Source: an uncultured candidate division Zixibacteria bacterium (lineage in GTDB: Bacteria; Zixibacteria; MSB-5A5; GN15; FEB-12). From it: a DNA stretch of 18,603 nucleotides. The stretch's first letter is position 1, and each line of letters starts with the position of its first letter. The stretch spans positions 1 through 18,603 of the forward strand of contig CAJVYT010000037.1 in assembly GCA_913009765.1 (NCBI GenBank), given 5' to 3'. The notes beneath the pieces were generated by a model, which was given only the letters and a program-made list of their open reading frames with translations, did no database searches and had not been told where the DNA came from. This document shows, one piece after another, positions 2,807 to 18,603 of this stretch. A program made the translations under genes and the position numbers.

Positions 2807-5800
2807 TTATTTTTTAATCTCACCAACCATTTTATCTGACCCGATCGTTGGCACAGAAAGCAATGAGTTATAACAACAGTCAAGAGTACCAATTCCGTTT
2901 AAATACTTTCCCAACACCATTATATCAGTAATATCAATGCGGTTATTGCAATTGAAATCAATAGCTTTGAGTGGATTCGGGACAGGTCCACAATCAAAAT
3001 ATGTTTGTCGGGCGAATATTAAATCGTTTTGGTCAACCTGACCGTCGGAATTGGCATCACCGCATATATATTCTATAACCTCAAGATCGACAGGCACTTC
3101 CACCGTCGGCACAATAGGGTCGTTACTATTTATTACAATAACAGCAGAATAGGTTCCATTGTTCAGTCCCGTACCATCGAAAACCATTTCAACTATTGTC
3201 GTGTCACTAACGGAAGTGGTATCACCCAGAGGGGTTGCCGACAGCCAATCAATTTTACGTGCCAGGAAGCCGAACAACTGGTTGGCAAAAATTTGATTAT
3301 CGCCGGCTACAAGTATACCGTTATAGAACAGTTCGTCAGCTATTGTAACAACCACTCCATTACCGATATAGCTGTAAGCAGTATTAGGAACCCCCAGACG
3401 ATCACGGACAATAATTGAGGTTGACGGTAAGACAGGCTGTGTCAGGGTAGCAAGGGGATTATTAAGATATAGACTATCAACACCAACAGTCGTCTCATGA
3501 GGTTCAATATTAGTTGTTACCCCCTGTTCACCATTCAATGAAGAATATGAAATACCGACACCTATGCCACTAAGGATCTCATTGTAACTACTAACTGATT
3601 CATCACCTTCCAGCAACAGTCCGCCACCCGTATTGACCCATGCAGAGAGAGCGTTAATCTCAACAGGGTTCCACGAAAAGTTATGATCTACTAACCAGAA
3701 TACGTCGATGTTTGCCAGTAAAGTGCTGGTAATGGTAGTTGTATTTATTATTACAATAGCACCTCGTGTCTCTAAATCACTAATGATAGTTTGCCAATAG
3801 CTACTTCCAATAGAACCGTGGGATTCATCAAACATAATTCTGACACCAGTAAGATCATTTAAATATGCCTGCATAGGGTAAGTGCGTGGGGCAGGTGGAG
3901 GTGATACCGGAGTTCCAACGAGAGGTTCGGAAATCATAGTATTATTGTAAGCAGGAGGAGTTGTAAGAGTATAAATATTAAGAGGTACTGAATTATTGAA
4001 ACGGAGTGCAATGTTCCAGATTAGGTCACTCCCTGCATTATTATAGATTTTAAGTGTGTCAGTCTCTATTGGATTAATTGACAAAATCAAACTTTTTGCA
4101 AATGAAGTTGGACTTACTTCAATTTCCGGAGGGGTTAATCCCTCTCCACGAAGTATAACAGTTAACAATGGCGTATCAGGATCGTTGCTGGAGAAAGACA
4201 ATACTCCGTTTATAGATCCTATCACACTGGGAATAAAAGTAACGATCACTTCCTTTACTTCTCCAGGATTTAGTGAAAAGCCATTCGTATTGGATGTGAA
4301 ATCACTGTTATCAGATGTGATGCTGGAAACATTCAGTACATCGGTACCATTATTTTCTACAAAAACAATACTTTCTTTTGAAGTACCGGTAAATACAATA
4401 TTATAATCAATAGTATCAGGTGTTACTGCGATATCAGGAATACCGAATACATTCAAGTGTGCCGGCACCAGTAGTTCCGGTTCATCGGGGTCATTGCTAT
4501 TGATGAGTAGGTCTGCCAGATAGTCACCTGCTTCCAATCCGGTTGCGTTAAAAAACACATCAATATTTTGTGTTTGTCCAGCCGGTATCGTTCCGGAAGT
4601 AGGTGTAGCTGCAATCCACGGAGGGTATAACTCGAGAGTATTTAAGAAACTGGTCATTATATTCAAGGTTGCAGTATCATCTATGAAAAAGCCGCCGGCT
4701 CCAGCATAAAGGAGGTAATAAATGCGATTAACACCATTGAGATTTAGTATGCGATGGTAGTCATCATTGGTGTAAGTGGCAAATTCATGATTAGCTGTAG
4801 AGTCATATTCAATAATAATCAGGTGATTTATAGATGGATCTACAGCATTGTAGACTCTCTTGACAAATCCCAGATATGTAACTCCATTAAAAGTAGTTTC
4901 TAAAATGGAACCGTCGGCATTACCTCTCCCGTCAGCACCGAGATTGCCGGTAATCTGGAAATAACTTACGTCCTGCATATCTGCTGCCATAACAAACAAA
5001 CCGGGATACTTTCTGGTAAAGTATCTCCCAGCACTACCAAATATGGTGCTGTTTACGATTAAATTATCAGAGTAACTTATAGCTCCGCCCAGGTTCGTAG
5101 ATAGTTGATTTCCGCCGTCGTACATGTCGTTGCCGCCATCACTGATATAATACCCGGTTACTCCGTCGATGAAATTATACTTGTTAGGAATACTACTTGT
5201 AATAGATTCAAAGCCGGCATTCAGTTTGTCAAGAATATTTTCCAGTTCGTTAGGATTTGTGGTTGCGGATGGCGGTGGGATATAGTCAACTCCAGCACCA
5301 TCAAAAGTATAAACCTCTGATAAAGGGAGTTTATCAAGGAGAACTTCACTTGTAGAGTCTTTGGTTTGATATATATTTTCTGAAGCACTGAATATGGGAC
5401 TGGATAAAATTGAAGTAGTTATTCCTGCATATGCACTAGCAAGTTTCCAATTCAAATCAGAACCTCCGTTATTAAAAATAGCCAATACTTGAGTTGAAGA
5501 ATCACCAATAGTTAAAATTTCATCCAGTGAATCGGGTGATACATTGATATCAGGAGGAACCAAACCTTGTCCCGAGAGATAGACCGACACTTCAGGTTGA
5601 TCGAGGTCGTCGCTTGTAATTGTAAGAAGACCTTCAATAGTGCCTGAAATAGTGGGAGTAAAAGTAACAGGGATTTCAATATTTTCACCGGGGTTCAACG
5701 TAAAACTGGTAGTTTCCGGTATGAAGTTGGAGTTATTGGAGATGACGCTGAAGACATTTAACAGGTCGGTTCCGATGTTTTCAACGAGAATAGTATCTAC

Positions 5801-8800
5801 TGTTGATAATCCAATGAACAAAGGACCAAAATCAATTGAATCGGGAGAAACGGCGATATCCGGTTCACCGGTGACATGCATATAAGCTGGGACGATAAGT
5901 TCCGATTCATCGGGATCGTTGCTGGAAATTATAATATCTGCAAAATAATCACCGTCATAAAGACCAGTCGCATCGAAAGTAACTTCGAAATCATAGCTCA
6001 TTCCGGCTGGGATAATTGCACTAAACGGATCCAGATTCAGCCAATTTGAGAATCTTATTCCGCGGTCAATCACGTTTTCCAAATCGGTGAGACTGTTGCC
6101 GGCCCCATAAATTGTTTTTACCTCTATAATTGAACCGGAATTAATATCTCCTAATTCTAAATGAAGGATCCCCAAACCGTCCACCCCTGAGACTGGACCA
6201 ACTGGAATATCGACTACAGTGTTTCGCTGACCATAATCATCCCAGCCGATGATATCCATCAAGTTCGGTACACGGCTGCTTGCTATGGCTGTGTAATTAG
6301 TATTCCAGGAATAAACCATATTTCGAGATAGATCGTAATTCCAATTCCCCGAAAATTCTCCATCTGTGTCCCAATCGGCGTAACTCTTGAAAACAACATC
6401 TGTCACAAGACTATCCGAGCTGTTTTCGATTTTAGAGACAATGTCTATAAACTGATCGCTTCGGTCGAACCTGAAGGTTCGAGTTAAGAATAATAGATTG
6501 TCACTTGTTTTGGTAACAACTTCGACAATTACTTCTGAGGTATTGTTAACCAGTTCCGTATAGGAAACCGGGACAAACTGAGAACGTGCACTATGAGCCG
6601 CCACAGATATTCGGTCGATACCTAAAACGCGGTAAGCTATTGTATAACCAGACAGGTATGTTCCCTCTTGCAAGTGTTCGTTGCCGACTGGAAATTGGAA
6701 AGGCATAATCTCTCCGTAATCGGAGATCCCAAAGCTTAAATAATCTCCAGTATATATACCTGCGGATACTGAAGCTGTTTGGTTGGATATTTCAGGTTTA
6801 GAATTATTAAATTGCTGTACTGAAGTATTTGTATTTGTTTCATCATCCAGCAAACCTTGATTTGCTTCATAATTGTCCGTTAGTCTTTTAAGTAATGTCG
6901 AGTTCAGTGTTGCCGGCCCGGGAGTGTTATTTGTAAAGTTGACATCAATTCTTAAGTCAACGATAAGATCGCTGCCCCCTAAGTTGTCGATGGTCAAGGT
7001 ATCGACTTCTGTTTCACCGGTGAAAAGACTATCCTGCAGGGAATCAGGCGAGACGGAAATGTCCGGTGGAATCAGACCCTGTCCCGAAAGATAAACGGTT
7101 TCTACCGGCTGGTCGGGGTCGTTGCTTGTCAGTGTCAGAAATCCGCTGATTGAAGCGGCTGTAGTTGGAGTGAACGAGACTGCAATTGAAATGTATTCAC
7201 CGGGGTTCAGCGTGAAACTGGAGGTGTCAGGCTGAAAGTCGGAGTTATCAGAAATGGTACTGGAAACGTTCAATAAATCTGTTCCGTTGTTTTGTACGAA
7301 AATAGTATCTACTGTTGATAATCCAATAAACAAAGGACCAAAATCAATTGAATCGGGAGAAACGGCGATGTCCGGGGCACCGGTAACATGTAAGCGGGCA
7401 GGGATGAACAGTTCCGATTCGTCGGGGTCGTTAGAGGTAATTACGGCATCGGCATAATAATTTCCTCCGATCAAGTTATTCGCATCAAAGGTAACGGTTA
7501 CGTCCATCGAAGAACCTGCTGGAACCGTTCCGGAAGTTGGCTCAACCGATATAAAGTCACTAATTGACGCCAGCCAGTCAAAAACCTGATTGGCAAAAAG
7601 TCGGGTATCACCAACTGAAAGATTAAAGTCTCCTGAAAATTCATTCCCTACTGCGATTACTCTTCCCCTTCCAATTTTGGATACTGCGGCATGAGGACGA
7701 GAAATATCGTCAAATACAATCGTTTGGGCTGGAGAAACAACCGTGCAATATGCTCCATAAGATGAACCATTGATAGAACTGACTCCTACGGTTGTAGGAT
7801 GAGGTAAAATATTGTCGAAAACAGCACCAGAAAAACCACCAATAGAACTCTCCGAAATGCCTGACCCGGAAAGCAGATTGTTCAGATTAGCCATGGAACT
7901 ATTATTATCACCCTGCAGTAAAAGACCGTTTCCGTTTCCTGTCTGAAGCCAGGTTTTTATGACATCAAGGTCAGTGGTTGAAGCAAAGTATATATCATCA
8001 TCAATCGCCAGAACATCCAGGCTATCGAGTTCACTAGATGTGAAGGGATACCCAACAGTTACCACTACCGCACCACGAGCTGTTAAGTCTGCAATAATTG
8101 TTGAGTAAAAACTGGATGTGTTCAGAAAACCTATTCTCTTTCCACTCAAATTAGTCAATGTTGTAGACAGTGATTGGATTGTAGTAGCCCCTTGAATTGA
8201 GTCTGTACTTGAAGAAGCGTCAATCGCTGGTAAATTGTCAGAAAAGTTTATTTCCGGTAGTGAAAATAACGCCGTTGAGGCAGTTGCACTGTCATGTGAA
8301 ATTAACGAAATATCAAAAAGTAGGTCACTTCCGCTGGAGTTGCCAATGGTCAAGGTATCGACTGCTGTCTCACCTGTGAAGAGACTGTCCTGTAGCGAAT
8401 CAGGAGATACATAAATGTCAGGTGGAAAAATGCCGTTGCCTGACAAATAAACTGTTACATTCGGATTGGTAGAATCACTGCTGGTAATAAGGAGAGTGCC
8501 GGTTTCCGATCCCGTGACGGTTGGTAGAAATTGAATCGCCACATCCTTATACTCTCCCAGAGGAACATTGAAAACTGTGGGGGATAAAACAGAAAAATGC
8601 GTGTTGTCAGAAGTTATTTCAAATACTTCCAGTAGATCAGTCCCGTCATTGGAAATACGCAGTAATAGGGAATCTTGAAAACCTATATAAGTAGTTCCAA
8701 AATTGAGAGTATCATCAGAAAGAACAATATTTGGCGTTCCGATGATCTTCAGTTGTACAGGTATAGTGTCTTGTGAATGAACAGGGTCATTACTACCTAT

Positions 8801-9913
8801 CAATATCATAGCACTGTAATCACCACCATTCAAAAAATTAGTTCTAACCCTGACTTCAATACTCATGCTGTCACCGGGTAAAACTGAGCCGTCAGAAGGA
8901 AACTCGGACAGCCAGTAATCACTAGCACCCGCCAGTGCAGCGAAGCCCAAAGAAGAGATACGACCTAAATAGGCACCGGTATTTATGTCATATTTGTCGA
9001 TACCGCCACCTGGCACCGAGCCATAAATATATCTAGAACTGCATCCCAGACCATAAATTGTTTGTATTGGGATGAAAGAATTAATAACTGAACCGTCGGT
9101 TAAACTAAGTTCATAAATCACATGGTTGAAATTGCTGGCAAAGAGTCTTCCATTCCCGCCATCAATTCCTCCTCCGATAGGTACAGGGGGACTAATCATT
9201 CTGAGTAGTGTTCCATTTTCGGAATTTAATTCATAAATGACCCCAGAGCTAAAGTCTTGTGCGTAGAGTTTGTTGTCTACAAAGGCAAGACCATCAATGG
9301 AACTTGAGGGAGCAGGAAACGAGTCCAATATTACTCCTGTAGACGGATTTATTGCAAAAATATTAGTTGTACTGAATGCATCTGTGAAATAGAGTTTTTT
9401 ACCAGAAAATGCCAACCCGGTTGGACCGTCTGAAGTTGGTACAGGAGTGGAAAAACTATTAAGCACATTTCCAGTATTTAAATCAATTTCTACAATTTGA
9501 TTTCCATTCGCACCAAACATCCTGCCATTTTCTGATGTAGATGTAGAAGTTTGTGTGGAAGATCCACTGGTATTATTCAAAAATTTTGATACACTTTGAC
9601 TTGTGATCTTTTCTAAATCAGAGTACGGATTGAAAACTTTCTCACTTTTTATTACTTTAAATGATTCGGGGTAGTTGACTGACATACCGGCACTTGAAAC
9701 GTTTGATAATAATTCGTTATAGAGTTCAAAGTCCAGTGTTGTCGAGCCGTTATTACGAATGATAAGATGAGCAACAGAACTGTCACCTTCGGTCAAGGTG
9801 AAAGATAACGAATCTGGAGTTACATCTATTATAGGTTGGGTAAAACAGGGAGTGGCACTGACTGCTACGAAAACGAATAATACTGCAACGTAAACTTGAA
9901 ACATCTTTTTCAT
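2807..9913 (-). CDS. Giant secreted modular protein: five Ig-like units with nested insert domains plus dockerin-like end
   Basis: The 2368-residue protein has a signal peptide (residues 1-26, ending near CFTQ) and an AGAGGTAA ribosome site 5 bases before the ATG. One plan repeats: half-Ig segment A (VSPDSL...GSDL), an insert, half-Ig segment B (SGT.PAG...FDATGL..GDY...SNDPDE), then ASH/choice-of-anchor-D domain C. A segments are at about 27-66, 495-540, 947-990, 1451-1495 and 1926-1972. B segments are at 334-392, 787-845, 1293-1349, 1768-1824 and 2223-2281. C domains are at 393-494, 846-946, 1350-1450 and 1825-1925. Inserts are a five-blade propeller-like repeat (127-330), a DUF4350/GATase-like domain (588-786), two unrecognised beta-rich domains (1050-1292, 1584-1767) and a second DUF4350-like domain (2020-2222). 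Residues 2284-2347 are a dockerin-like pair of calcium loops (DANSDGQVDQND; DFNCNNRIDITD) flanked by cysteines. There is no type IX sorting tail. It is probably a cell-surface or extracellular adhesive or scaffold protein; no enzyme active site is evident. Confidence 0.9.
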   Translation of the reverse strand: MKKMFQVYVAVLFVFVAVSATPCFTQPIIDVTPDSLSFTLTEGDSSVAHLIIRNNGSTTLDFELYNELLSNVSSAGMSVNYPESFKVIKSEKVFNPYSDLEKITSQSVSKFLNNTSGSSTQTSTSTSENGRMFGANGNQIVEIDLNTGNVLNSFSTPVPTSDGPTGLAFSGKKLYFTDAFSTTNIFAINPSTGVILDSFPAPSSSIDGLAFVDNKLYAQDFSSGVIYELNSENGTLLRMISPPVPIGGGIDGGNGRLFASNFNHVIYELSLTDGSVINSFIPIQTIYGLGCSSRYIYGSVPGGGIDKYDINTGAYLGRISSLGFAALAGASDYWLSEFPSDGSVLPGDSMSIEVRVRTNFLNGGDYSAMILIGSNDPVHSQDTIPVQLKIIGTPNIVLSDDTLNFGTTYIGFQDSLLLRISNDGTDLLEVFEITSDNTHFSVLSPTVFNVPLGEYKDVAIQFLPTVTGSETGTLLITSSDSTNPNVTVYLSGNGIFPPDIYVSPDSLQDSLFTGETAVDTLTIGNSSGSDLLFDISLISHDSATASTALFSLPEINFSDNLPAIDASSSTDSIQGATTIQSLSTTLTNLSGKRIGFLNTSSFYSTIIADLTARGAVVVTVGYPFTSSELDSLDVLAIDDDIYFASTTDLDVIKTWLQTGNGNGLLLQGDNNSSMANLNNLLSGSGISESSIGGFSGAVFDNILPHPTTVGVSSINGSSYGAYCTVVSPAQTIVFDDISRPHAAVSKIGRGRVIAVGNEFSGDFNLSVGDTRLFANQVFDWLASISDFISVEPTSGTVPAGSSMDVTVTFDANNLIGGNYYADAVITSNDPDESELFIPARLHVTGAPDIAVSPDSIDFGPLFIGLSTVDTIFVQNNGTDLLNVSSTISDNSDFQPDTSSFTLNPGEYISIAVSFTPTTAASISGFLTLTSNDPDQPVETVYLSGQGLIPPDISVSPDSLQDSLFTGETEVDTLTIDNLGGSDLIVDLRIDVNFTNNTPGPATLNSTLLKRLTDNYEANQGLLDDETNTNTSVQQFNNSKPEISNQTASVSAGIYTGDYLSFGISDYGEIMPFQFPVGNEHLQEGTYLSGYTIAYRVLGIDRISVAAHSARSQFVPVSYTELVNNTSEVIVEVVTKTSDNLLFLTRTFRFDRSDQFIDIVSKIENSSDSLVTDVVFKSYADWDTDGEFSGNWNYDLSRNMVYSWNTNYTAIASSRVPNLMDIIGWDDYGQRNTVVDIPVGPVSGVDGLGILHLELGDINSGSIIEVKTIYGAGNSLTDLENVIDRGIRFSNWLNLDPFSAIIPAGMSYDFEVTFDATGLYDGDYFADIIISSNDPDESELIVPAYMHVTGEPDIAVSPDSIDFGPLFIGLSTVDTILVENIGTDLLNVFSVISNNSNFIPETTSFTLNPGENIEIPVTFTPTISGTIEGLLTITSDDLDQPEVSVYLSGQGLVPPDINVSPDSLDEILTIGDSSTQVLAIFNNGGSDLNWKLASAYAGITTSILSSPIFSASENIYQTKDSTSEVLLDKLPLSEVYTFDGAGVDYIPPPSATTNPNELENILDKLNAGFESITSSIPNKYNFIDGVTGYYISDGGNDMYDGGNQLSTNLGGAISYSDNLIVNSTIFGSAGRYFTRKYPGLFVMAADMQDVSYFQITGNLGADGRGNADGSILETTFNGVTYLGFVKRVYNAVDPSINHLIIIEYDSTANHEFATYTNDDYHRILNLNGVNRIYYLLYAGAGGFFIDDTATLNIMTSFLNTLELYPPWIAATPTSGTIPAGQTQNIDVFFNATGLEAGDYLADLLINSNDPDEPELLVPAHLNVFGIPDIAVTPDTIDYNIVFTGTSKESIVFVENNGTDVLNVSSITSDNSDFTSNTNGFSLNPGEVKEVIVTFIPSVIGSINGVLSFSSNDPDTPLLTVILRGEGLTPPEIEVSPTSFAKSLILSINPIETDTLKIYNNAGSDLIWNIALRFNNSVPLNIYTLTTPPAYNNTMISEPLVGTPVSPPPAPRTYPMQAYLNDLTGVRIMFDESHGSIGSSYWQTIISDLETRGAIVIINTTTITSTLLANIDVFWLVDHNFSWNPVEINALSAWVNTGGGLLLEGDESVSSYNEILSGIGVGISYSSLNGEQGVTTNIEPHETTVGVDSLYLNNPLATLTQPVLPSTSIIVRDRLGVPNTAYSYIGNGVVVTIADELFYNGILVAGDNQIFANQLFGFLARKIDWLSATPLGDTTSVSDTTIVEMVFDGTGLNNGTYSAVIVINSNDPIVPTVEVPVDLEVIEYICGDANSDGQVDQNDLIFARQTYFDCGPVPNPLKAIDFNCNNRIDITDIMVLGKYLNGIGTLDCCYNSLLSVPTIGSDKMVGEIKK
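5789..5863 (-). repeat. Near-identical intragenic repeat, copy 1 (partner 7301-7375)
   Basis: This 75-base segment matches 7301-7375 at all but two positions by my alignment. It encodes the start of the third C domain (DIAVSPDSIDFGPLFIGLST). Most other repeat copies in the gene have diverged at the nucleotide level, so this pair is a recent duplication or has been homogenised by gene conversion. Confidence 0.85.
7301..7375 (-). repeat. Near-identical intragenic repeat, copy 2 (partner 5789-5863)
   Basis: Second copy of the 75-base repeat, encoding the start of the second C domain. The two differences I see are A/G changes. The spacing between copies is 1512 bases, an exact multiple of three, equal to one complete A-insert-B-C unit. 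Confidence 0.85.
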
Positions 9914-10338: not shown

Positions 10339-10528
10339 TTAGAGAAATGAGAGATTGAATAGATATTAGAATAAAAAAATGGCTAAAAGAAATTGAAAAA
10401 GAAAATTTATAATTTTAAATAAGATAGCATATTGTTTCATAAACAAGGTACTGTTCTACATCTCATCCTGTTGGATAACAACAGTTTAAAAACAAAACAG
10501 ATTGAAATCAAAAATTCCTTGACAAATT
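10339..10528. other. Gene-free stretch between integrase remnant and ars promoter
   Basis: No coding sequence is supported on either strand. A perfect inverted repeat CTGTTG-GATAA-CAACAG lies at 10468-10484, about 40 bases before the arsR promoter, followed by TTTAAAA. It could be a weak terminator or an upstream regulator site. Its arms differ from the ArsR-type operators downstream. Confidence 0.4.
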
Positions 10529-10546
10529 AATCTATTTGGTTATTTT
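10519..10546 (+). promoter_or_regulatory. Predicted promoter of the ars operon
   Basis: A consensus -35 TTGACA (10519-10524) is followed after 16 bases by TATTTT (10541-10546) as the -10. This would start transcription near 10553, about 25 bases before arsR. The -10 falls inside the inverted repeat at 10529-10558, as expected for ArsR repression. Confidence 0.55.
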
Positions 10547-10558
10547 GCCAAGTAAATA
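10529..10558. promoter_or_regulatory. ArsR-type operator upstream of arsR (imperfect)
   Basis: Left arm AATCTATTTGGT, six-base spacer, right arm GCCAAGTAAATA. The left arm matches that of the perfect repeat at 10913-10942 except for the last base, the right arm matches in nine of twelve positions, and the spacer length is the same. The repetition on both sides of an ArsR-family gene and the overlap with the -10 identify it as the probable autoregulatory operator. Confidence 0.7.
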
Positions 10559-10578
10559 TGCCGATAAGATAAATAGTG

Positions 10579-10896
10579 ATGAACAATAAGAAAAAACAAA
10601 AATACGAAGCCCGAGCGAAAGTAATAAAGGCACTGGCACATCCTTCTCGTTTATTAATTGTAGATGAGCTTTCTAAAGGAGAGCGATGTGTTTGTGAGTT
10701 ACGTGATATGATTGGTGCTGATATTTCAACTGTATCAAAACATTTATCGGTTCTTAAACAAGCAGGAATAGTTGAAGATGATAAACGAGGACTCCAGGTT
10801 TGGTATACTCTTCGGGTTCCATGCATTCTTAACTTTTTTGGATGTATAGAAGAGGTATTAAAAGCAATGGCAAAACAAGCTCGACAGGCTTTGTAG
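10579..10896 (+). CDS. arsR: ArsR/SmtB-family metalloregulator
   Basis: A 105-residue repressor starting at ATG 10579; an in-frame GTG at 10576 would add one residue. It is a standard ArsR winged-helix protein: an ALAHPSRLLIVDEL helix, then the metal-site helix with CxC (GERCVCEL, C37 and C39), then the DNA-reading helix ISTVSKHLSVLKQAGIV and the wing (DDKRGLQVWYTLR). The CVC in the helix before the recognition helix is in the As(III)/Sb(III) site known from E. coli ArsR (ELCVCDLC), although only two of its three cysteines align. Two further cysteines lie near the C-terminus (VPCILNFFGC) and could supply the third ligand. It heads a plus-strand operon and is flanked by matching inverted repeats, so binding of a thiophilic metalloid probably releases it. 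The family and fold are certain; the exact inducer is inferred. Confidence 0.93.
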   Translation: MNNKKKQKYEARAKVIKALAHPSRLLIVDELSKGERCVCELRDMIGADISTVSKHLSVLKQAGIVEDDKRGLQVWYTLRVPCILNFFGCIEEVLKAMAKQARQAL

Positions 10897-10912
10897 CTAA
10901 TATTTTTTTGGA

Positions 10913-10942
10913 AATCTATTTGGCGAAACAGCCAAATAGATT
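10913..10942. promoter_or_regulatory. Second, perfect ArsR-type operator between arsR and the permease
   Basis: A perfect inverted repeat with twelve-base arms: AATCTATTTGGC, six-base spacer GAAACA, GCCAAATAGATT. It repeats the layout of the site in front of arsR. It sits 17 bases after the arsR stop and 34 bases before the permease start. A possible promoter straddles it (TTGGCG 10920-10925, 16 bases, TAGATT 10942-10947). The arms could form a hairpin in RNA, but no T run follows, so a simple terminator is less likely. Confidence 0.75.
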
Positions 10943-10976: not shown

Positions 10977-12275
10977 TTGAATTGGAAAACTGAATGGAAA
11001 CCGCTTGTATGGATAGTAGTAGTTTTCCTTATATTCTTTTATCTACCAATCGAAAGTATTCGTTTTAAAGAAGCAGTCTTTGAAGCACTTGCACTTACAA
11101 AATGGTATGCTCAAGAACATGTTATTCTCTGTTTGATTCCTGCATTTTTTATAGCAGGAGCAATTGCTGTTTTTGTGAGTCAAGCATCTGTAATGAAATA
11201 TTTAGGGGCTAAGGCGAACAAGGTACTTTCGTATGGTGTGGCGTCGGTGTCGGGAACGATATTGGCTGTTTGTTCTTGTACGGTACTACCTCTGTTTGCC
11301 GGAATCTATCGGATGGGTGCGGGTCTTGGTCCTGCAACAGCATTTCTTTATTCAGGACCTGCAATAAATGTTTTAGCAATAGTTCTAACAGCCAGAGTTC
11401 TTGGATTTGAATTAGGAGTTGCACGAGCTGTTGGAGCAATTGCATTTAGCATTATAATAGGACTTTCGATGCACTTTATTTATCGCAAGGAAGAAACCGA
11501 AAAAGCAAATGCTCAACTTTCACAACCGGAACCTGAAGTAGGTCGACCACTCTGGCAAAATGGGTTGTATTTTTTAGCAATGGTTATAATCTTAGTCTTT
11601 GCAAACTGGGGAAAACCTATCGAAACAAGTGGAGTTTGGTATCTCATATATGCATATAAATGGATAATCACAGGTATTGCGTCTATAGGACTTGGAATAA
11701 TATTAATTCTATGGTTTAAGCTGTCAAAGATTCCGATTATTCTGACCGGATTGGCAACTGCAATAATCGCATTGATATTTCCGAATGAACCGTTGTTGTC
11801 ATTTTCAGCGGCTGTGATTGGTTTATCAATTATAATCAGTCGTCGTACTGATGAATCGGGTGAATGGTTTGAACAAACATGGGGATTTGCAAAACAGATA
11901 TTACCCCTGTTATTAGGAGGTGTACTTGTAGCCGGTCTGTTGTTGGGTCGTCCTGGATTTGAAGGTATCATTCCTTCACATTGGATAAGTGATTCAGTTG
12001 GCGGGAATTCATTTGGAGCGAATCTCTTTGCTTCGGTTGCCGGAGCATTTATGTATTTTGCAACATTAACAGAAGTACCGATTTTACAAGGTTTAATAGG
12101 TAATGGAATGGGAAAAGGACCGGCATTGGCGTTATTATTAGCAGGTCCGGCACTTTCTTTACCAAATATGCTTGTCATTAGATCTATTATGGGAACACAA
12201 AAGACATTAGTCTTTGTATCGCTTGTAATTGTAATGGCAACTATTTCTGGAATGATATTTGGGGCGATATTTTAA
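10977..12275 (+). CDS. COG0701/ArsP-like membrane permease
   Basis: A 432-residue inner-membrane protein with about ten hydrophobic segments in two halves, joined by a charged linker around residues 170-192 (RKEETEKANAQLSQPEPE). The diagnostic family segments are AVCSCTVLPLFAGI (C99 and C101) followed by GLGPATAFLYSGPAINVLAI, and, in the second half, ATLTEVPILQGL (E366) and GKGPALALLLAGPALSLPN. This is the DUF318/UPF0718 permease family, which contains the organoarsenical (methylarsenite) exporter ArsP. The cysteines in the first re-entrant-like segment could bind a trivalent arsenical. The start is TTG at 10977, supported by AGGAG eight bases upstream. Placement after arsR and its operator argues for toxicant export. 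The substrate (arsenite, methylarsenite or another thiophilic ion) cannot be decided from sequence. Confidence 0.88.
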   Translation: MNWKTEWKPLVWIVVVFLIFFYLPIESIRFKEAVFEALALTKWYAQEHVILCLIPAFFIAGAIAVFVSQASVMKYLGAKANKVLSYGVASVSGTILAVCSCTVLPLFAGIYRMGAGLGPATAFLYSGPAINVLAIVLTARVLGFELGVARAVGAIAFSIIIGLSMHFIYRKEETEKANAQLSQPEPEVGRPLWQNGLYFLAMVIILVFANWGKPIETSGVWYLIYAYKWIITGIASIGLGIILILWFKLSKIPIILTGLATAIIALIFPNEPLLSFSAAVIGLSIIISRRTDESGEWFEQTWGFAKQILPLLLGGVLVAGLLLGRPGFEGIIPSHWISDSVGGNSFGANLFASVAGAFMYFATLTEVPILQGLIGNGMGKGPALALLLAGPALSLPNMLVIRSIMGTQKTLVFVSLVIVMATISGMIFGAIF

Positions 12276-12309: not shown

Positions 12310-12549
12310 TTGAAAAAAATTGAGATACTCGGAACTGGTTGCCCTAAGTGCAAGAAGCTTGAAGAGCAGGCACAAGAGGCGGCTGCTCAACTCAACTTAG
12401 AATGTGACATTGTAAAAGTGGAAGACATTCAAAAAATTATGGCTTATGGTGTGATGATGACACCCGCCCTTGTTGTTGACGGGCAGGTAAAAGTGACGGG
12501 TAAAGTACCTTCAATAGATGATATTAAACAAATAATTGCTCAAGAATAG
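12310..12549 (+). CDS. Small cytoplasmic thioredoxin/glutaredoxin-like protein (TM0996/MTH895 type)
   Basis: A 79-residue protein with the active-site motif GCPKC (C11, C14) at the N-terminus, a cis-proline segment MMTPALVVDG (P52) and the usual short KKIEILGTG first strand. This is the 'redox-active disulfide protein 2' family of minimal thioredoxins, with no signal peptide. I chose the TTG at 12310 rather than a longer in-frame start at 12259 for two reasons. TAAGGAG lies seven bases before it, and residues before it (GRYFNNNYSENLRRK) overlap the permease end and match nothing. It follows the permease by 34 bases. These small thioredoxins often travel with COG0701 permeases and may reduce the metalloid or disulfides for them. 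Here it may also feed electrons to the CcdA-like protein downstream (inference). Confidence 0.9.
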   Translation: MKKIEILGTGCPKCKKLEEQAQEAAAQLNLECDIVKVEDIQKIMAYGVMMTPALVVDGQVKVTGKVPSIDDIKQIIAQE

Positions 12550-12559
12550 AGAGGAATGT

Positions 12560-13042
12560 ATGAAGAACGTTTTATTAGTTGTTATAGGTCTTTTACTATT
12601 TTCAGTTGTTTCTGTTTTTGCTGTGGAAAAGCCTATGAATCAATCTAAAGATTCAAGTGAAGTAGTAATCAATAAGTCAAAAGAGACACAACAACTCGAC
12701 AAAGTTGTTGTATACTATCTGCACATGAACAGAAGATGTATGACTTGCAAAAAGCTTGAAGCATATTCAAAAGAAGCAATAGAAACCGGATTTGCACAGC
12801 AGTTACATGACAGCAGTGTTGTTATAGAAGTCAAAAACTTTGAACAAGAAGGCAACGAACACTTTGCTAAAAAATATCAGTTATATAGCCAATCTCTAAT
12901 TTTATCAAGACAGCACGACGGCAAGGAAACCGAATGGAAGAATCTTGATAAAATTTGGGAGTTGGTCGGAAATAAAGAAGAATTCATTACCTACGTGCAG
13001 AATCAGGTAAAAGATTTCCTTAACCCCAAAAAAGATAAGTAA
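12560..13042 (+). CDS. arsF: ArsF-family periplasmic thioredoxin-like protein
   Basis: A 160-residue exported protein. The ATG at 12560 is preceded by GAGAGG; the signal peptide (KNVLLVVIGLLLFSVVSVFA) is cut after about residue 21. After a low-complexity linker comes a thioredoxin-like core: strand VVVYYLHMN, then CMTC (C60, C63) and a helix KKLEAYSKEAI. A cis-proline loop is not obvious (the matching place reads SQSLILS). The family is annotated as ArsF, 'nitrophenyl compound nitroreductase subunit', by association with arsEFG clusters. The sequence itself shows only a CxxC oxidoreductase, with no flavin or metal site. It is ten bases from the thioredoxin gene and one base from arsG, so it is translationally coupled. 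It may be the outside acceptor of electrons passed by the ArsG-like membrane protein. Confidence 0.85.
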   Translation: MKNVLLVVIGLLLFSVVSVFAVEKPMNQSKDSSEVVINKSKETQQLDKVVVYYLHMNRRCMTCKKLEAYSKEAIETGFAQQLHDSSVVIEVKNFEQEGNEHFAKKYQLYSQSLILSRQHDGKETEWKNLDKIWELVGNKEEFITYVQNQVKDFLNPKKDK

Positions 13043-13043
13043 A

Positions 13044-13742
13044 ATGGACAGCTATTTTATAGCACTCGGTTCTGCCGTCTGGTTGGGTATTCTGACCTCG
13101 ATATCACCTTGTCCATTGGCTACCAATATTGCAGCTATCAGTTATATTGGCAAACAGGTCGATAAACCAAGCACTGTACTCCTATCAGGTGTCATGTATA
13201 CCGTTGGTCGTATGCTTTCCTATATCGTACTCGGTATGCTGGTCGTAGCAAGCATTTTATCTGTTCCTGATGTAGCTATGTTCCTTCAGCAAAATATGAA
13301 TAAAGCCCTTGGTCCTATCCTTATTTTAGTTGGCGTACTTTTATTAGGTATCTTCAATCTCAATCTGCCCGGCTATAGTGCGAGTGAGAAACTAACAGGT
13401 AGAGTGGAAAAATGGGGGATATTCGGTGCCGGAGCATTAGGATTCTTGTTTGCACTATCTTTCTGCCCTGTTTCAGCAGCATTGTTCTTTGGTAGTTTGA
13501 TACCTTTGGCGATAGAACATCAATCATCTATCCTGATGCCAACTGTTTTTGGAGTAGGAACTGCTCTTCCGGTTGTAGCTTTTGCAGTTTTAATTGCTAT
13601 TGGGGCAAAATGGGTAGGCTCTGCTTTTAATAAGATAAGCGTTTTTGAGAAATGGGCGAGAAGGATAACAGCAGTAGCTTTTATTTTAGTAGGTATTTAT
13701 TATACGTTGATTTATATTTTTGTAATAGAGGTCTTTGATTAA
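13044..13742 (+). CDS. arsG: ArsG-family CcdA/DsbD-like membrane protein
   Basis: A 232-residue protein with six predicted membrane segments. The family marks are two prolyl-cysteine segments in the first and fourth helices: SISPCPLATNIA (C23) and LSFCPVSAALFFG (C141). This is the symmetric cysteine pair of CcdA/DsbD-type transmembrane electron carriers. Databases name close relatives ArsG, 'aromatic aminobenzylarsenical efflux permease', a role assigned in arsEFG systems. The conserved cysteine pair suggests instead, or in addition, that it moves reducing power across the inner membrane. It starts one base after arsF and ends eight bases before the regulator gene. Its neighbours, a cytoplasmic thioredoxin and a periplasmic CxxC protein, fit the carrier reading. 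Family assignment is firm; transport versus electron transfer is open. Confidence 0.87.
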   Translation: MDSYFIALGSAVWLGILTSISPCPLATNIAAISYIGKQVDKPSTVLLSGVMYTVGRMLSYIVLGMLVVASILSVPDVAMFLQQNMNKALGPILILVGVLLLGIFNLNLPGYSASEKLTGRVEKWGIFGAGALGFLFALSFCPVSAALFFGSLIPLAIEHQSSILMPTVFGVGTALPVVAFAVLIAIGAKWVGSAFNKISVFEKWARRITAVAFILVGIYYTLIYIFVIEVFD

Positions 13743-13750
13743 TGGGATAA

Positions 13751-14434
13751 ATGATGACTCAGTATGAAAAAAATCGAGAGCAGGATTATAAAGAAACACA
13801 TAAGACATTCAGTAAATTTCTCAAGCCACGTAAATTTCGAAAAGGTCAATTGCTTTGGAGTGAGGGAGATACTGACGGTTTACTGGTCTTTCTTAAAACC
13901 GGTCGGGTGAAGATTTATCGGCTTCTTCCGACCGGTAAAGCAATTACTCTATACATTTTTGGTGCCAATACTGTTTTTGGATTTATGCCTTTTTTCGATG
14001 ATGCACCATATCCCGCTTATGCTCAGGCACTCGATAATTGTGAGGCTGAAGTTATCTCCCGCACCGGGCTTCGTCAGGCGGTTCACCAAGATCCCGACTT
14101 GTCAATAGTTCTCATGAAGCATCTGGCAAAAAGACTTCGTGATGCTTTTGATACGATAGAAAGGCTTCAGAGTAAAGGTACAGACCCAAAAGTCGCATCG
14201 GCTTTGTTAGCTTTGGTAGAAAATAGTTCTAACTCCTCCCACGCTCATATTATCATTTCCTTGCCGATTTCATCACACGAATATGCACAGTCTCTTGGGC
14301 TTACTCCTGAGTCTTTTTCTCGTTCAATTACTCGCTTGGTTGATAAAAGTATTCTTAAACGTCTGCAGAGAAACCGTTTTCAAATACTGAACTCAGAAGC
14401 CCTCAAAGAGGTTGCTGAAAGTGCCATATGGTAG
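13751..14434 (+). CDS. Crp/Fnr-family transcription regulator, DNR-like (no Fe-S cysteines)
   Basis: A 227-residue protein (ATG 13751; a second ATG three bases on). Residues 25-125 are a cyclic-nucleotide-type beta-roll (RKGQLLWSEGD, FLKTGRVKIYR, FGFMPFFDD). About 126-142 is the dimer helix, and 147-227 an HTH_Crp domain with turn and recognition helix at 173-200 (SSHEYAQSLGLTPESFSRSITRL). The recognition helix carries E187, S190 and R191, the E..SR pattern by which FNR reads TTGA half-sites; CRP-type RE...R is absent. There is only one cysteine (C97) and no N-terminal cluster, so it is not an oxygen-sensing FNR. DNR/HcpR-like sensing of NO, haem or another ligand is possible. It lies eight bases after arsG, so it is probably co-transcribed with the ars genes. 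Matching boxes stand before the next gene and before the tolC-like gene. Confidence 0.88.
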   Translation: MMTQYEKNREQDYKETHKTFSKFLKPRKFRKGQLLWSEGDTDGLLVFLKTGRVKIYRLLPTGKAITLYIFGANTVFGFMPFFDDAPYPAYAQALDNCEAEVISRTGLRQAVHQDPDLSIVLMKHLAKRLRDAFDTIERLQSKGTDPKVASALLALVENSSNSSHAHIIISLPISSHEYAQSLGLTPESFSRSITRLVDKSILKRLQRNRFQILNSEALKEVAESAIW

Positions 14435-14528
14435 TTTGATCTAAGTTCGTTCAAAAAAAAATACTATCCCCAAAATCATTTTATCCTAATCTAATCTCCC
14501 ACATATACTTGATGAAAATACTGCCTTT

Positions 14529-14571
14529 ATTGACGGCGGTCAATGAGCTGTTGTTACCATCTGCCTATATA
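14529..14571 (+). promoter_or_regulatory. Crp/Fnr-type box and promoter of the FmdE-TSUP genes
   Basis: ATTGACGGCGGTCAAT (14529-14544) is a near-perfect palindrome with TTGAC/GTCAA half-sites. It begins 95 bases after the Crp/Fnr gene stop and lies 79 bases before the next start codon. TATATA at 14566-14571 is a plausible -10; with +1 at about 14578 the box centre (14536.5) falls at exactly -41.5, the class II position for FNR-type activators. No good -35 is present, which fits activator dependence. Confidence 0.72.
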
Positions 14572-14623
14572 GGAACATGAAAGACGGAATTGAAACAAAA
14601 AACTCTTTGATGGAGAAACAGTT

Positions 14624-15241
14624 ATGGTAGAACCAAAAGAATTTCTTGAAGCGGGACAAATTTTTCACGGTCATAAATGTCCGGCAATGCCAATGGGGCT
14701 TAAAGTTGGTGCGGCAGCTATGAACAAACTGGGAGTAGAACGCTCAATGGATGGTCAGCTGCAAGCTCTGGTCGAAATCGGTGAAGGTCACTGTGCCACC
14801 TGCTTTGCGGACGGTGTCCAAATGATTACCGGTTGTACATTCGGCAAAGGTAATATTAAGAAACTTTATTATGGTAAATGGGGAGTAACACTTATCGATA
14901 CAACAACCGGTCGGGCAGTACGTGTTTCTCCCAAGGCAGAGGCGATGTTGGCAAGTAAGAAAACAGAGTTTTTTACCGAGTATAGGATGAAACATATCCC
15001 TGCATCGAAAGTTCCTTCTGAAGTTGTTGAACCTCTTGTGGAAAAAGTAATGAATGCTCCGGTTGAGATGCTGCTTAATATAGGTGAGGTATTTGATTAT
15101 GAAGTACCACCAAAAGTGGAATCTTTCACAGGTTTTGTTTGTGATATGTGCGGAGAAATGGTTTCAGAAATTTACGGTCGCCCTTTAGGTGATAAAAAAG
15201 TTTGTCAACCCTGTTATGAGAAAGCACAGAGAGAGCATTAA
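14624..15241 (+). CDS. FmdE-family protein with C-terminal zinc ribbon (copy 1)
   Basis: A 205-residue cytoplasmic protein (ATG with GGAG eight bases upstream). The PF02663 core is complete: FHGHKCPA (H15, H17, C19), EGHCATC (H56, C57, C60), DGVQMITGCTFGKGN (C71), then helices. A zinc ribbon closes it, CDMC...CQPC (C173, C176, C194, C197). FmdE is named from formylmethanofuran dehydrogenase operons of methanogens, but bacterial members occur without that enzyme. The conserved His/Cys set forms a metal-binding pocket, and a role in molybdenum/tungsten or another metal or sulfur relay is suspected rather than shown. It is the first gene after the FNR-like box and is followed 44 bases on by a TauE/SafE permease, so the two may share a substrate. 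A second copy lies at 16990. Confidence 0.9.
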   Translation: MVEPKEFLEAGQIFHGHKCPAMPMGLKVGAAAMNKLGVERSMDGQLQALVEIGEGHCATCFADGVQMITGCTFGKGNIKKLYYGKWGVTLIDTTTGRAVRVSPKAEAMLASKKTEFFTEYRMKHIPASKVPSEVVEPLVEKVMNAPVEMLLNIGEVFDYEVPPKVESFTGFVCDMCGEMVSEIYGRPLGDKKVCQPCYEKAQREH

Positions 15242-15285: not shown

Positions 15286-16035
15286 ATGGGCATAGAAATA
15301 TTCGCCGGAATTATAACGCTGATATTTACAGCTCTTCTCACTATTGCCGGAGTTGGGGCTGCTTTTATACTGATTCCTGTATTTATAGCATTGGGTATAG
15401 ATATACATACATCTATGGCAACAGCGTTATTGCTCAACAGTATCGCTATGATGTTTGCTTCATATAGATTTATCAAAAAGAAACTGATATTGTGGAAAGT
15501 TGCTATCCCGATTCTCATTATTGCAACGGTCTTATCTCCCGTTGGTGCTTATGTGAGTCAGTCGCTTGACCGTAATCTTCTTTTGTGGATGTTTGTCGGA
15601 TTCCTTCTTTTTGCTGCCGCTATGATGTTGTTTTATCAATCCAAACAACGCGAAACAGAAAGTGCTCAGTGGAAACAAATAACTCTTGGTTTGAGTGTTG
15701 GTGCCTTTGCCGGTTTCTTAGGCGGACTATTAGGTGTTGGAGGTGGTAATTTTATTGTGCCGGTTTTGGTCTGGCTTGGTTTCAATCCTAAATATGCTTC
15801 TGCCACAACATCGTTTATTGTCATATTCTCCTCTTTTTCAGGATTTTTAGGACATGCGTCAGTCGGAAATATTGATACAGCTCTATTAGCTTATACCGCT
15901 ATTGGTTCTGCCGGTGGAGCTGTGATAGGGTCATGGTTGATGACAGATAAATTAAAACGGAATCAAGTAAAAATAATTATTGGAGTTGTTCTTCTTGGAA
16001 TTGCTGCCAAAATGGTTTGGAATTTGATGTGCTGA
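15286..16035 (+). CDS. TauE/SafE-family (TSUP) membrane transporter
   Basis: A 249-residue inner-membrane protein with about eight hydrophobic segments. Both halves carry the TSUP pattern: an N-terminal half with GVGAAFILIPVFIALGIDIHTSMATALLLN and a C-terminal half with GFLGGLLGVGGGNFIVPVLV, followed by ATTSFIVIFSSFSGFLGH. The GGLLGVGGG.FIVP segment is diagnostic. Family members move sulfite, sulfoacetate, taurine-derived sulfonates or other anions; the direction and substrate here are unknown. The start at ATG 15286 has AAAGG eight bases upstream. It lies 44 bases after the FmdE gene across the palindromic stem, so it is probably one unit with it. A sulfur-anion or oxyanion role next to FmdE is an inference. 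Confidence 0.9.
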   Translation: MGIEIFAGIITLIFTALLTIAGVGAAFILIPVFIALGIDIHTSMATALLLNSIAMMFASYRFIKKKLILWKVAIPILIIATVLSPVGAYVSQSLDRNLLLWMFVGFLLFAAAMMLFYQSKQRETESAQWKQITLGLSVGAFAGFLGGLLGVGGGNFIVPVLVWLGFNPKYASATTSFIVIFSSFSGFLGHASVGNIDTALLAYTAIGSAGGAVIGSWLMTDKLKRNQVKIIIGVVLLGIAAKMVWNLMC

Positions 16036-16989: not shown

Positions 16990-17604
16990 ATGGTTCAGAA
17001 TATTAACGACTTATTGATGACTGCATTTGATTTTCACGGACATAAGTGTCCGGCACTCTTGCTTGGTCTCAGATCAGGTATTGCGGCGATGAAAGTATTA
17101 ATGGTAGAGCGTTCAACAGACCAGGAACTCTATATAATTTCTGAAACAGGTGATGACCATGCCGGAGGATGTTTTGTTGATGGATTAATGGTTGCAACCG
17201 GGTGTACATTTGGTAAAGGAAATATTGAAAAAACTAATTGTGATAAGTTTGCCTTTACATTGATTGATACAGTAAGTCAACGTGCTGTACGAGCAACTCT
17301 CTTAAAGGAAAATATTGAAATGCTCATGCATTCACGTTTTGTTGAGGAGCGTAAAAGAGGAAAATCACCAATGGAAATACCGGCAGATTTTATGTCGCCA
17401 CTTATGGCAAGTGTTCTCTCAAAATCTGAAAAGAACTTTATTGATTTTGGAGCTGTAGTAGATTGGAAATGGGAACAAAAGCCTAAGACATATGATACTT
17501 CATATTGTGATTATTGTGGTGAGTTGACATTTGTCAGTAAGCTAGTTGAAAAAGAAAATAAAAAAATTTGTCCTTGTTGTTTTCAAAAATTATACGGTAA
17601 ATAA
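16990..17604 (+). CDS. FmdE-family protein with C-terminal zinc ribbon (copy 2, altered pocket)
   Basis: A 204-residue paralogue of the protein at 14624, with the same start pattern and GAAGG six bases before the ATG. It keeps FHGHKCPA (H16, H18, C20), the second-pocket histidine (H57) and GCTFGKGN (C72), and a zinc ribbon (C173, C176, C194, C196, C197). The HCATC motif of copy 1 reads HAGGC here: the first cysteine (C57) is alanine (A58), and only C61 remains. The ribbon gains a cysteine (CPCC instead of CQPC). The length match and co-linearity show a gene duplication; the change in metal ligands suggests the two copies have divided or changed function. It sits between the hairpin at 16875 and the FNR-like box at 17652, so it may be expressed alone. 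Confidence 0.88.
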   Translation: MVQNINDLLMTAFDFHGHKCPALLLGLRSGIAAMKVLMVERSTDQELYIISETGDDHAGGCFVDGLMVATGCTFGKGNIEKTNCDKFAFTLIDTVSQRAVRATLLKENIEMLMHSRFVEERKRGKSPMEIPADFMSPLMASVLSKSEKNFIDFGAVVDWKWEQKPKTYDTSYCDYCGELTFVSKLVEKENKKICPCCFQKLYGK

Positions 17605-17651: not shown

Positions 17652-17667
17652 TTTGACCGCCATCAAT
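17652..17667 (+). promoter_or_regulatory. Second Crp/Fnr-type box, upstream of the TolC-family gene
   Basis: TTGACCGCCATCAA (17653-17666), flanked by T on both sides, shares the TTGAC-N4-RTCAA pattern with the box at 14529. TAATAT at 17693-17698 is a possible -10, which would put the centre near -45. The spacing is less exact than at the first site, so I rate it lower. Confidence 0.6.
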
Positions 17668-17777: not shown

Positions 17778-18603
17778 ATGATTGATAAATATTTTAAAAC
17801 AAGCAGTTTTGGTAGAAAGCGTTCTATTGTCTTTTTACTTTCGGTGGTAATGGTGGGGATTCTACTATTCACTACAGCTAACGCCAAAGTTGTTACATTA
17901 GGAGAGGTACTGCATCAGGTTGAACTTCAAGCATCCCCTTTAAAAGCAGCAAATGCACAAATAGATATATTCAAAGCAAAACGGAATATTGTAAAAAGTA
18001 AGTTTTTGGGAGAAATAAACCTGTTTGCCCATGACGTGCATTTTAATGATAATCGTTTAACACGACCAATTTCTCCGCCAATTGATTTTTCAAATATGAC
18101 ATTTGATGATAATCAATATGGATATGGAGTCGGTGTACAATTACCTTTAGATTTAAATGGGCAAATTCGTAATAGTTTTCATGCTCTGACACATCAGACA
18201 AAAGCTGTTACAGCAGAAGTGGCAAATATTCGTCTATCACTTCTTTATACTGCAGCTGAATTGTATCGAAGTTTGGAGCAACTATATGGACAACGTAAAG
18301 CATTGCAGGAACAACAAGAAGCTCTTAAAGGGCATATTAAAATTGCCATAACTGCTGTTGAAGTTGGAAGGATTGCTAAAGTTGAAGAATTGCGACTTAT
18401 TGCAGAACTAAAAACAGTTGAAGGAAAACTTGCCGGTTTAGATGGTGCAGAATCTGGAATAAGAGCTCGACTTGCTTCTCTGCTTGATGTAGCTTCATTT
18501 ACAGATTCAATTTCTTTAACTACAAACCTGCCTCAATTTATGTTTTTGACTTCTGATTCAATCAGTCTTCGCCCTGATATTATTGCTGTTAAGGAACAGG
18601 AAA
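17778..18603 (+). CDS. TolC-family outer-membrane efflux protein (5' part; runs off the window)
   Basis: The first 275 codons are visible, from ATG 17778 behind AGAGGAG, and the frame is still open at 18603. A signal peptide (FLLSVVMVGILLFTTANA) ends near residue 36. Then come the usual OEP features: VTLGEVLHQVELQASPLKAANAQIDIFKAKRNIVKSKF (first helix), a barrel segment ending in YGYGVGVQLPLDLNG, and the following helix QIRNSFHALTHQTKAVTAEVANIRLSLLYTAAELYRSLEQL. A helix-turn LRLIAELKTVEGKLAGLDGAE, then the second half beginning with LRPDIIAVKEQE, the typical 'RPDI.A' start of the internal repeat. It would form the trimeric exit duct of an RND or similar pump. An adaptor and a pump gene probably follow beyond the window (inference). 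An FNR-like box lies in its leader. Confidence 0.92.
   Translation, partial: MIDKYFKTSSFGRKRSIVFLLSVVMVGILLFTTANAKVVTLGEVLHQVELQASPLKAANAQIDIFKAKRNIVKSKFLGEINLFAHDVHFNDNRLTRPISPPIDFSNMTFDDNQYGYGVGVQLPLDLNGQIRNSFHALTHQTKAVTAEVANIRLSLLYTAAELYRSLEQLYGQRKALQEQQEALKGHIKIAITAVEVGRIAKVEELRLIAELKTVEGKLAGLDGAESGIRARLASLLDVASFTDSISLTTNLPQFMFLTSDSISLRPDIIAVKEQE

Follow-up and report, generated by a model that had tools for sequence, protein, structure and literature searches.

ArsR repressors are usually described as switching their own operon directly. Within the Crp/Fnr superfamily, FNR reads TTGA half-sites through E209, S212 and R213, DNR, a haem-dependent NO sensor, and similar FNR-like regulators lack a [4Fe-4S] cluster yet bind FNR-type sites, and E. 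coli CRP contacts cAMP through E72, R82 and S83. Structures of the FmdE family (PF02663) are presented in one report (PMC2954224).

We analyzed an 18,603-nucleotide stretch of DNA (the window) in which an ArsR-linked operon ends in the gene of a probable activator of the Crp/Fnr family, and in which a box precedes the same two genes, fmdE and a TSUP permease gene, as in distant bacteria that also keep its promoter register. The regulator very probably turns on fmdE and TSUP, which points to an undescribed second control layer in arsenic-resistance islands and names FmdE and TSUP as candidate metalloid or sulfur detoxification proteins. The proposed two-layer circuit is open to testing in a cultured Anaeromyxobacter whose fmdE-TSUP genes stand next to arsC-arsD-arsA behind a variant of the box.

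As in known ArsR-controlled arsEFG and arsP operons, members of the arsR, arsP, arsE, arsF and arsG families stand in one operon, but here a Crp/Fnr gene closes it and a conserved box lies before fmdE-TSUP. The regulator shares with FNR an E..SR helix, TTGA half-sites and a box near −41.5 (class II), but it has no Fe-S cysteines and its best sequence and fold matches are of the Crp type (MtbCRP), not FNR. Fold and domain order are those of CRP, MtbCRP and GlxR, the best PDB matches by sequence and fold (TM about 0.5), whereas F78, P88 and A89 occupy the cAMP-contact positions and the box is of the TTGA type rather than a CRP site. DNR, which is among the PDB matches, belongs to a group that likewise uses an FNR-type site without a [4Fe-4S] cluster, but the predicted targets here are FmdE and TSUP with ars neighbours, not denitrification genes. 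The window FmdE has the core domain of its family, but its gene stands in an ars and efflux context, not with formylmethanofuran dehydrogenase genes. The parts of the circuit are of known kinds; the regulator clade, the FmdE/TSUP regulon and the ars-operon wiring appear to be new. An earlier note on this DNA knew of no coupling of ArsR, a Crp/Fnr regulator and FmdE/TSUP, and in the literature that we searched on FmdE/TSUP, Crp/Fnr and arsenic resistance, with most subscription journals lying outside the search, no description of such a circuit was found either.

Gene order in the window

By open reading frames and family profiles, arsR, arsP, arsE, arsF, arsG and the Crp/Fnr gene run in the same direction as one operon (Table 1). 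ArsR is assigned to the ArsR/SmtB class by a helix-turn-helix profile above cut-off together with C38-V-C40 and C83/C90 read from the sequence, and the arsEFG assignment follows from arsE, arsF and arsG members that all score above curated cut-offs. The start codon of the Crp/Fnr gene lies 8 nt past the arsG stop codon; this gene is the last of the ars operon, as the earlier note had it. Downstream of it come a non-coding stretch, fmdE, the TSUP permease gene, a beta-barrel gene, a second fmdE and a TolC-like gene. The first FmdE ends in a four-cysteine finger (seen by eye) and has 2gvi as its closest solved structure. Within the ars operon of locus L004 sits a relative of the second FmdE type (53% identity); the L066 FmdE is about as close to one window type as to the other. 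A secreted repeat protein of 2368 aa, its C-terminal end dockerin-like by eye, is encoded on the minus strand at 2807-9913.

Table 1. Coordinates of the features discussed, numbered from the first nucleotide of the window.
Feature	Position	Strand	Basis or remark
arsR promoter, −35 TTGACA	10519..10524	+	from sequence; layout alike in L001 and L004 by eye
Putative ArsR operator 1, TATTTGG-N8-CCAAGTA	10533..10554		by eye; imperfect arms; overlaps arsR −10
arsR promoter, −10 TATTTT	10541-10546	+	from sequence
arsR, ArsR/SmtB metalloregulator	10576..10896	+	NF033788, 85.5 bits (cut-off 55)
Putative ArsR operator 2, perfect 11-8-11 palindrome in the arsR-arsP gap	10913..10942		0/2000 shuffles
arsP-type permease	10977..12275	+	PF03773
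arsE, thioredoxin-like protein	12310..12549	+	TIGR00412 above cut-off; TTG start assumed
arsF family protein	12560..13042	+	NF040494 above cut-off; start assumed
arsG family transporter	13044..13742	+	NF040495, 297 bits (cut-off 200)
Crp/Fnr-family regulator, 227 aa	13751..14434	+	FNR-type recognition helix, no Fe-S cysteines
Regulator box TTGACGGCGGTCAA	14530-14543		centre −41.5 if +1 = 14578 (assumed)
fmdE promoter, −10 TATATA	14566-14571	+	from sequence
fmdE, predicted target	14624..15241	+	PF02663
TSUP/TauE family permease, predicted target	15286..16035	+	domain match; one transcript with fmdE assumed
Outer-membrane beta-barrel gene	from 16185		
Second FmdE gene	16990-17604		
Second box TTGACCGCCATCAA, 5′ of the outer-membrane efflux gene (17778)	17653..17666		exact match; −10 fit weaker by eye
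TolC-like outer membrane efflux protein (OEP), possible second target	17778..18603	+	truncated by window end

The regulator protein

The regulator combines a cNMP-type sensor (cNMP_binding, PF00027, 8e-19) with a Crp-type winged helix (HTH_Crp_2, PF13545, 2e-11), and its top fold matches, MtbCRP and TtCAP, agree with membership in the Crp/Fnr superfamily. The predicted model (mean pLDDT 86.1, pTM 0.61) has MtbCRP as its best fold match at a TM of about 0.5; model and fold search go no further than to confirm a Crp fold. Finer assignments were read from an alignment of 37 sequences, the window's own and 36 of the 120 homologues listed.

E187, S190 and R191, which we take to be the positions of FNR E209, S212 and R213, are invariant (37/37). 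From this FNR-type helix the earlier note had predicted TTGA half-sites, and TTGAY-N4-RTCAA boxes are indeed found at the fmdE/TSUP promoters of most orthologous loci; helix and half-sites together argue for FNR-type DNA specificity. The note was also right that the iron-sulfur cysteines are missing. C97, the single cysteine of the window regulator, is kept in 28 of the 37 sequences, 8 have no cysteine at all, and there is no conserved set such as FNR proper uses for its [4Fe-4S] cluster; with one non-invariant cysteine, the regulator is therefore no Fe-S FNR. A cAMP receptor of the CRP kind was likewise rejected: F78, P88 and A89, presumably (by an alignment made by eye) the positions of E72, R82 and S83 of E. 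coli CRP, are invariant in the alignment, and for this reason cAMP is an unlikely ligand. No histidine is invariant, and several sensor-domain motifs, FGFMP and PYPA among them, are strongly conserved. A plasmid search for the regulator gave no match at E 1e-25. The crp genes of L066 and L067 appear to encode an additional N-terminal winged-helix domain, LexA-like by eye.

The box and its promoter in the window

The box TTGACGGCGGTCAA begins 95 nt past the stop codon of the Crp/Fnr gene, with 22 nt between it and TATATA. The earlier note had read a box centred at −41.5 before a TATATA −10 element, and these coordinates agree with the sequence, the +1 at 14578 being assumed; the −10 itself is modest (0.9 bits in the matrix used). 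An exact TTGAY-N4-RTCAA site arose within 200 bp 5′ of fmdE in 2 of 1000 dinucleotide shuffles, and the whole window contains three exact sites (0.17 expected from mononucleotide shuffles), the third of which, at 18103, lies inside a gene. With up to 2 mismatches allowed, the window contains no excess of the motif (44 found, 47.3 expected), and weight is therefore placed on exact or near-exact sites in promoters.

Distribution of the regulator and its neighbours

A genome scan yielded 15 regulator loci and was followed by profile searches of four phyla, those of G001 (132 genomes), G006 (195), G003 (297, drawn from more) and G012 (28), bringing the regulator-bearing genomes found to 20 in all. 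Among the 132 genomes of the G001 phylum the regulator was found in none beyond G001 and G004, and the 28 of the G012 phylum gave no new regulator locus.

L001 and L004, both titled Zixibacteria/Zixiibacteriota, retain the order arsR-arsP-...-arsF-arsG-crp-fmdE-TSUP. In L066, crp-fmdE-TSUP is followed by arsE-arsF-arsG, and in L002 and L003 arsR lies 5′ of crp, and fmdE and TSUP belong to separate units. L010 and L012 come from Anaeromyxobacter: L010 (A. oryzisoli) has crp-fmdE-TSUP, an apparent acr3 remnant (by eye) and then arsC, arsD and arsA, with ArsD and ArsA above and ArsC below curated cut-offs, and L012 has crp-fmdE-TSUP, a family-less ORF, an ArsR-like ORF and then ACR3 above cut-off. 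An ars-type gene occurs in the fetched stretch of 14 of the 21 loci, the window included, a raw count in which some matches are weak or consist of ArsR alone; none was found in the fetched stretches of L005, L011, L013, L014, L015, L065 and L067, some of them on short contigs. Judged by sequence, the regulator and a boxed fmdE/TSUP form a core pair that recurs across four phyla or more (those of G001, G003, G006 and G012), often in arsenic-resistance neighbourhoods.

Conservation of the box and promoter register

The consensus TTGAY-N4-RTCAA was fixed, from knowledge of FNR and the window's box, before other loci were inspected. We scanned the 200 bp before fmdE or TSUP at 21 promoters (18 fmdE, 3 TSUP) from 17 regulator-bearing genomes and the window; G002 and G003 resemble each other, and the promoter rows are thus not all independent. 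G005 and G177, in which no close FmdE was found, and G622, whose box lies before another gene, have no row in the set. The box is exact at 13 promoters, has one mismatch at 1 and two at 6, and is missing at 1 (G008, four mismatches). The earlier note had proposed looking for the same gene order and box in related genomes, with the idea failing if loci that keep the regulator had no box: the box is kept at the fmdE/TSUP promoters of most orthologous loci, and only the fmdE of G008 departs from this. Shuffle fractions are 0 to 0.003 for the exact sites and 0.015 to 0.18 for those with two mismatches, which are singly weak.

Four of the 7 inexact boxes (G010, G180, G006 and G007, all in the phylum of G006) are a TTGCC variant in register. 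At L010, L012, L077 and L078 it can be seen that TTGCC often replaces TTGAC in this phylum, the helix residues E, S and R being unchanged in the homologues aligned; it is possible that box sequence and regulator have shifted together there.

A −10 matrix built on general frequencies was scored at each distance past the box for 19 promoters, the 21 minus G008, which has no box, and G144, whose box is not in register. The mean score peaks 22 nt past the box, where 8 of the 19 reach at least 2 bits, and none of 5000 mononucleotide shuffles matches the summed best score of 21-23 nt; adding G144 leaves peak and shuffle counts unchanged. The 13 exact sites by themselves give a peak at 21 nt, and the best of 21-23 nt is again reached in 0/5000 shuffles, but the score at 22 nt taken singly falls short of significance (405/5000). 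The register is therefore 21-22 nt rather than strictly 22, and that the inexact sites strengthen the 22-nt peak speaks for their being real. A box whose centre falls at −40.5 to −41.5 before a −10 element is the arrangement of a class II promoter, as predicted here from sequence.

The box stays with the target genes where the gene order changes. A rhodanese-like ORF (by eye) separates crp from fmdE in L013 and the box adjoins fmdE; fmdE and TSUP are split in L002, L003 and L014, with a box at each. L001 has an additional exact site directly 3′ of crp, at 8070.

Three of four fmdE genes lying away from crp also have the box or its variant (exact in G150; TTGCC, two mismatches, in G006 and G007). 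The fourth, in G008 (53% identical), has no box in its 200 bp upstream despite a regulator in the genome. In the G008 locus, L008, a box at 9628 lies 3′ of crp before a patatin-like ORF (by eye). Neither G145 nor G466, genomes in which the search found no regulator, has a site at 0-1 mismatch before its fmdE orthologue: the best site in G145 has 3 mismatches (shuffle fraction 0.74) and that in G466 has 2 (0.27), at −15 from the start codon. Absence of the regulator here means a profile threshold of E 1e-45 applied to the top candidates of each genome (15 of 23 scored in G145). Taken together, a box at fmdE tends to go with the presence of the regulator.

Among the 195 genomes of the G006 phylum the regulator occurs in 9 and FmdE in 8, with both in 7 (p 1.5e-10), and in the phylum of G001 one pair of genomes accounts for both the regulator (132 genomes searched) and FmdE (129 searched). 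Regulator (3/297) and close FmdE (1/297 at E 1e-80, G466) fall in different genomes of the G003 phylum at the thresholds applied; more distant FmdE genes lie close to the regulators of G003 and G513. FmdE was found in 0/200 genomes of the G008 phylum at E 1e-80. Box, register and co-occurrence in two phyla are thus results of comparison between genomes.

The ArsR step

In five loci (window, L001, L004, L002 and L003) the regulator lies downstream of ArsR-type palindromes. Besides the second putative operator of the window, the arsR-arsP gap holds a 10-8-10 palindrome in L001 (1/2000 shuffles) and a 7-8-7 palindrome in L004 (31/2000); the arsR-crp promoter has a perfect 7-8-7 palindrome in L002 (15/2000) and an imperfect one in L003. 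A perfect-repeat test at the first putative operator of the window (10533..10554) found none. A T-run followed by GG lies directly before the second palindrome in the window (10903-10911), and likewise in L001 and L004. The palindromes resemble ArsR operators, and ArsR control of crp is likely. Exact sites of the ArsR motif occur singly in G002, G003 and G001, the motif having been derived from the very loci in which it is counted, and at ≤2 mismatches it is not enriched genome-wide over the reversed pattern.

Linkage of arsR and regulator is limited to some lineages; elsewhere no arsR precedes the regulator, and ArsR coupling is therefore not universal. The cascade proposed in the earlier note, in which ArsR senses a metalloid and the second regulator made by its operon switches on FmdE/TSUP when a second signal is present, is supported in its link of regulator, box and fmdE/TSUP, with box and −10 kept, and gains an ArsR step from the palindromes, but not as a general arrangement.

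Proposed mechanism and alternatives

From these comparisons we infer a sequence of events that runs from inducer and ArsR control to binding and activation. ArsR would repress the arsR-arsP-arsE-arsF-arsG-crp operon through the palindromic operators, and a metalloid or related soft-metal compound would free it, so that the regulator is made. The regulator dimer would bind TTGAC-N4-GTCAA at about −41.5 with its FNR-type helix and act as a class II activator of fmdE-TSUP, two steps that comparative sequence evidence supports, and probably of the efflux gene at 17778 as well. Placement of the regulator under ArsR would be one lineage-specific wiring. We give this scheme as a whole, an ArsR-linked regulator that activates fmdE-TSUP from a conserved class II box, a probability of about 0.7, lowered slightly because regulator and close FmdE do not coincide in the G003 phylum and because the spacing spreads over 21-22 nt.

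Many FNR-type proteins could bind TTGAC-N4-GTCAA, so the box could be real and serve another of them, for example a true FNR, with the adjacent regulator having other targets; the separation of regulator and close FmdE in the phylum of G003, at the thresholds used, would fit this. We nevertheless hold it to be improbable, as it leaves unaccounted for the box at three of four distant fmdE genes (exact in G150, variant in G006 and G007, not in G008), the lack of a 0-1-mismatch site at fmdE of G145 and G466, in which the search found no regulator, and the fact that regulator and FmdE occur together in two phyla. Improbable too in our judgement is a regulator that represses from this box: a box covering the −35 region can block polymerase too, but a centre at −40.5 to −41.5 combined with a recognizable −10 in distant lineages is class II activator geometry. 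A somewhat unlikely variant dispenses with a second signal, release of ArsR alone raising the amount of regulator until fmdE/TSUP come on. The missing Fe-S cysteines and the F78, P88 and A89 invariant in 37 sequences at the cAMP-contact positions agree with such a feed-forward by amount, but the strong conservation of the sensor domain (FGFMP, PYPA, others) suggests a ligand pocket under selection, and lineages without arsR beside crp need something else to set regulator activity.

It is unlikely, too, that the arsenic link is incidental, with regulator and FmdE/TSUP acting on a sulfur compound and only happening to cluster with ars genes in resistance islands. For this reading speak Sulf_transp genes at or close to L004 and L061, the rhodanese-like ORF of L013 (by eye), a C_GCAxxG_C_C gene 3′ of the box in L067 with a two-rhodanese ORF after it (by eye), and the 7 of 21 loci without an ars-type gene in the fetched stretch; against it stand ars-type neighbours in 14 of 21 loci (a raw count), arsC-arsD-arsA 3′ in L010, acr3 in L012 and the ArsR-type palindromes before the crp operon. 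Under the favoured scheme, the sulfur-related neighbours in L004, L061, L013 and L067 hint at sulfur-bound metalloids or sulfane sulfur. Returning to activation of fmdE-TSUP by an ArsR-linked regulator, a wider proposal can be made tentatively and with less than even confidence: that a separate regulator clade with the invariant PYPA motif serves, in several phyla, as a dedicated second-tier activator of arsenic-resistance islands, that FmdE and TSUP are unrecognized parts of metalloid detoxification, perhaps of sulfur-bound arsenic, and that ArsR and sulfur or redox inputs are combined.

Further candidate targets

The second box, TTGACCGCCATCAA, arose in 0/2000 mononucleotide shuffles of its 200 bp, with a less clear −10 at 22 nt. 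It heads the efflux gene at 17778, which the regulator probably also activates; the run of TSUP, OEP, HlyD and AcrB-type genes in L003 offers a parallel for an efflux pump in the regulon. The L014 contig has exact boxes at 2091, 3131 and 6730, close to TSUP, to a cation diffusion facilitator gene and to fmdE/crp, and L044, from the same genome, has a further exact box near a small permease-like ORF (by eye). One-mismatch boxes lie within 300 bp 5′ of crp in 4 of the 21 loci (L001, L007, L010 and L012), and in L014 the box before crp is exact and common to fmdE; boxes in this position perhaps serve autoregulation.
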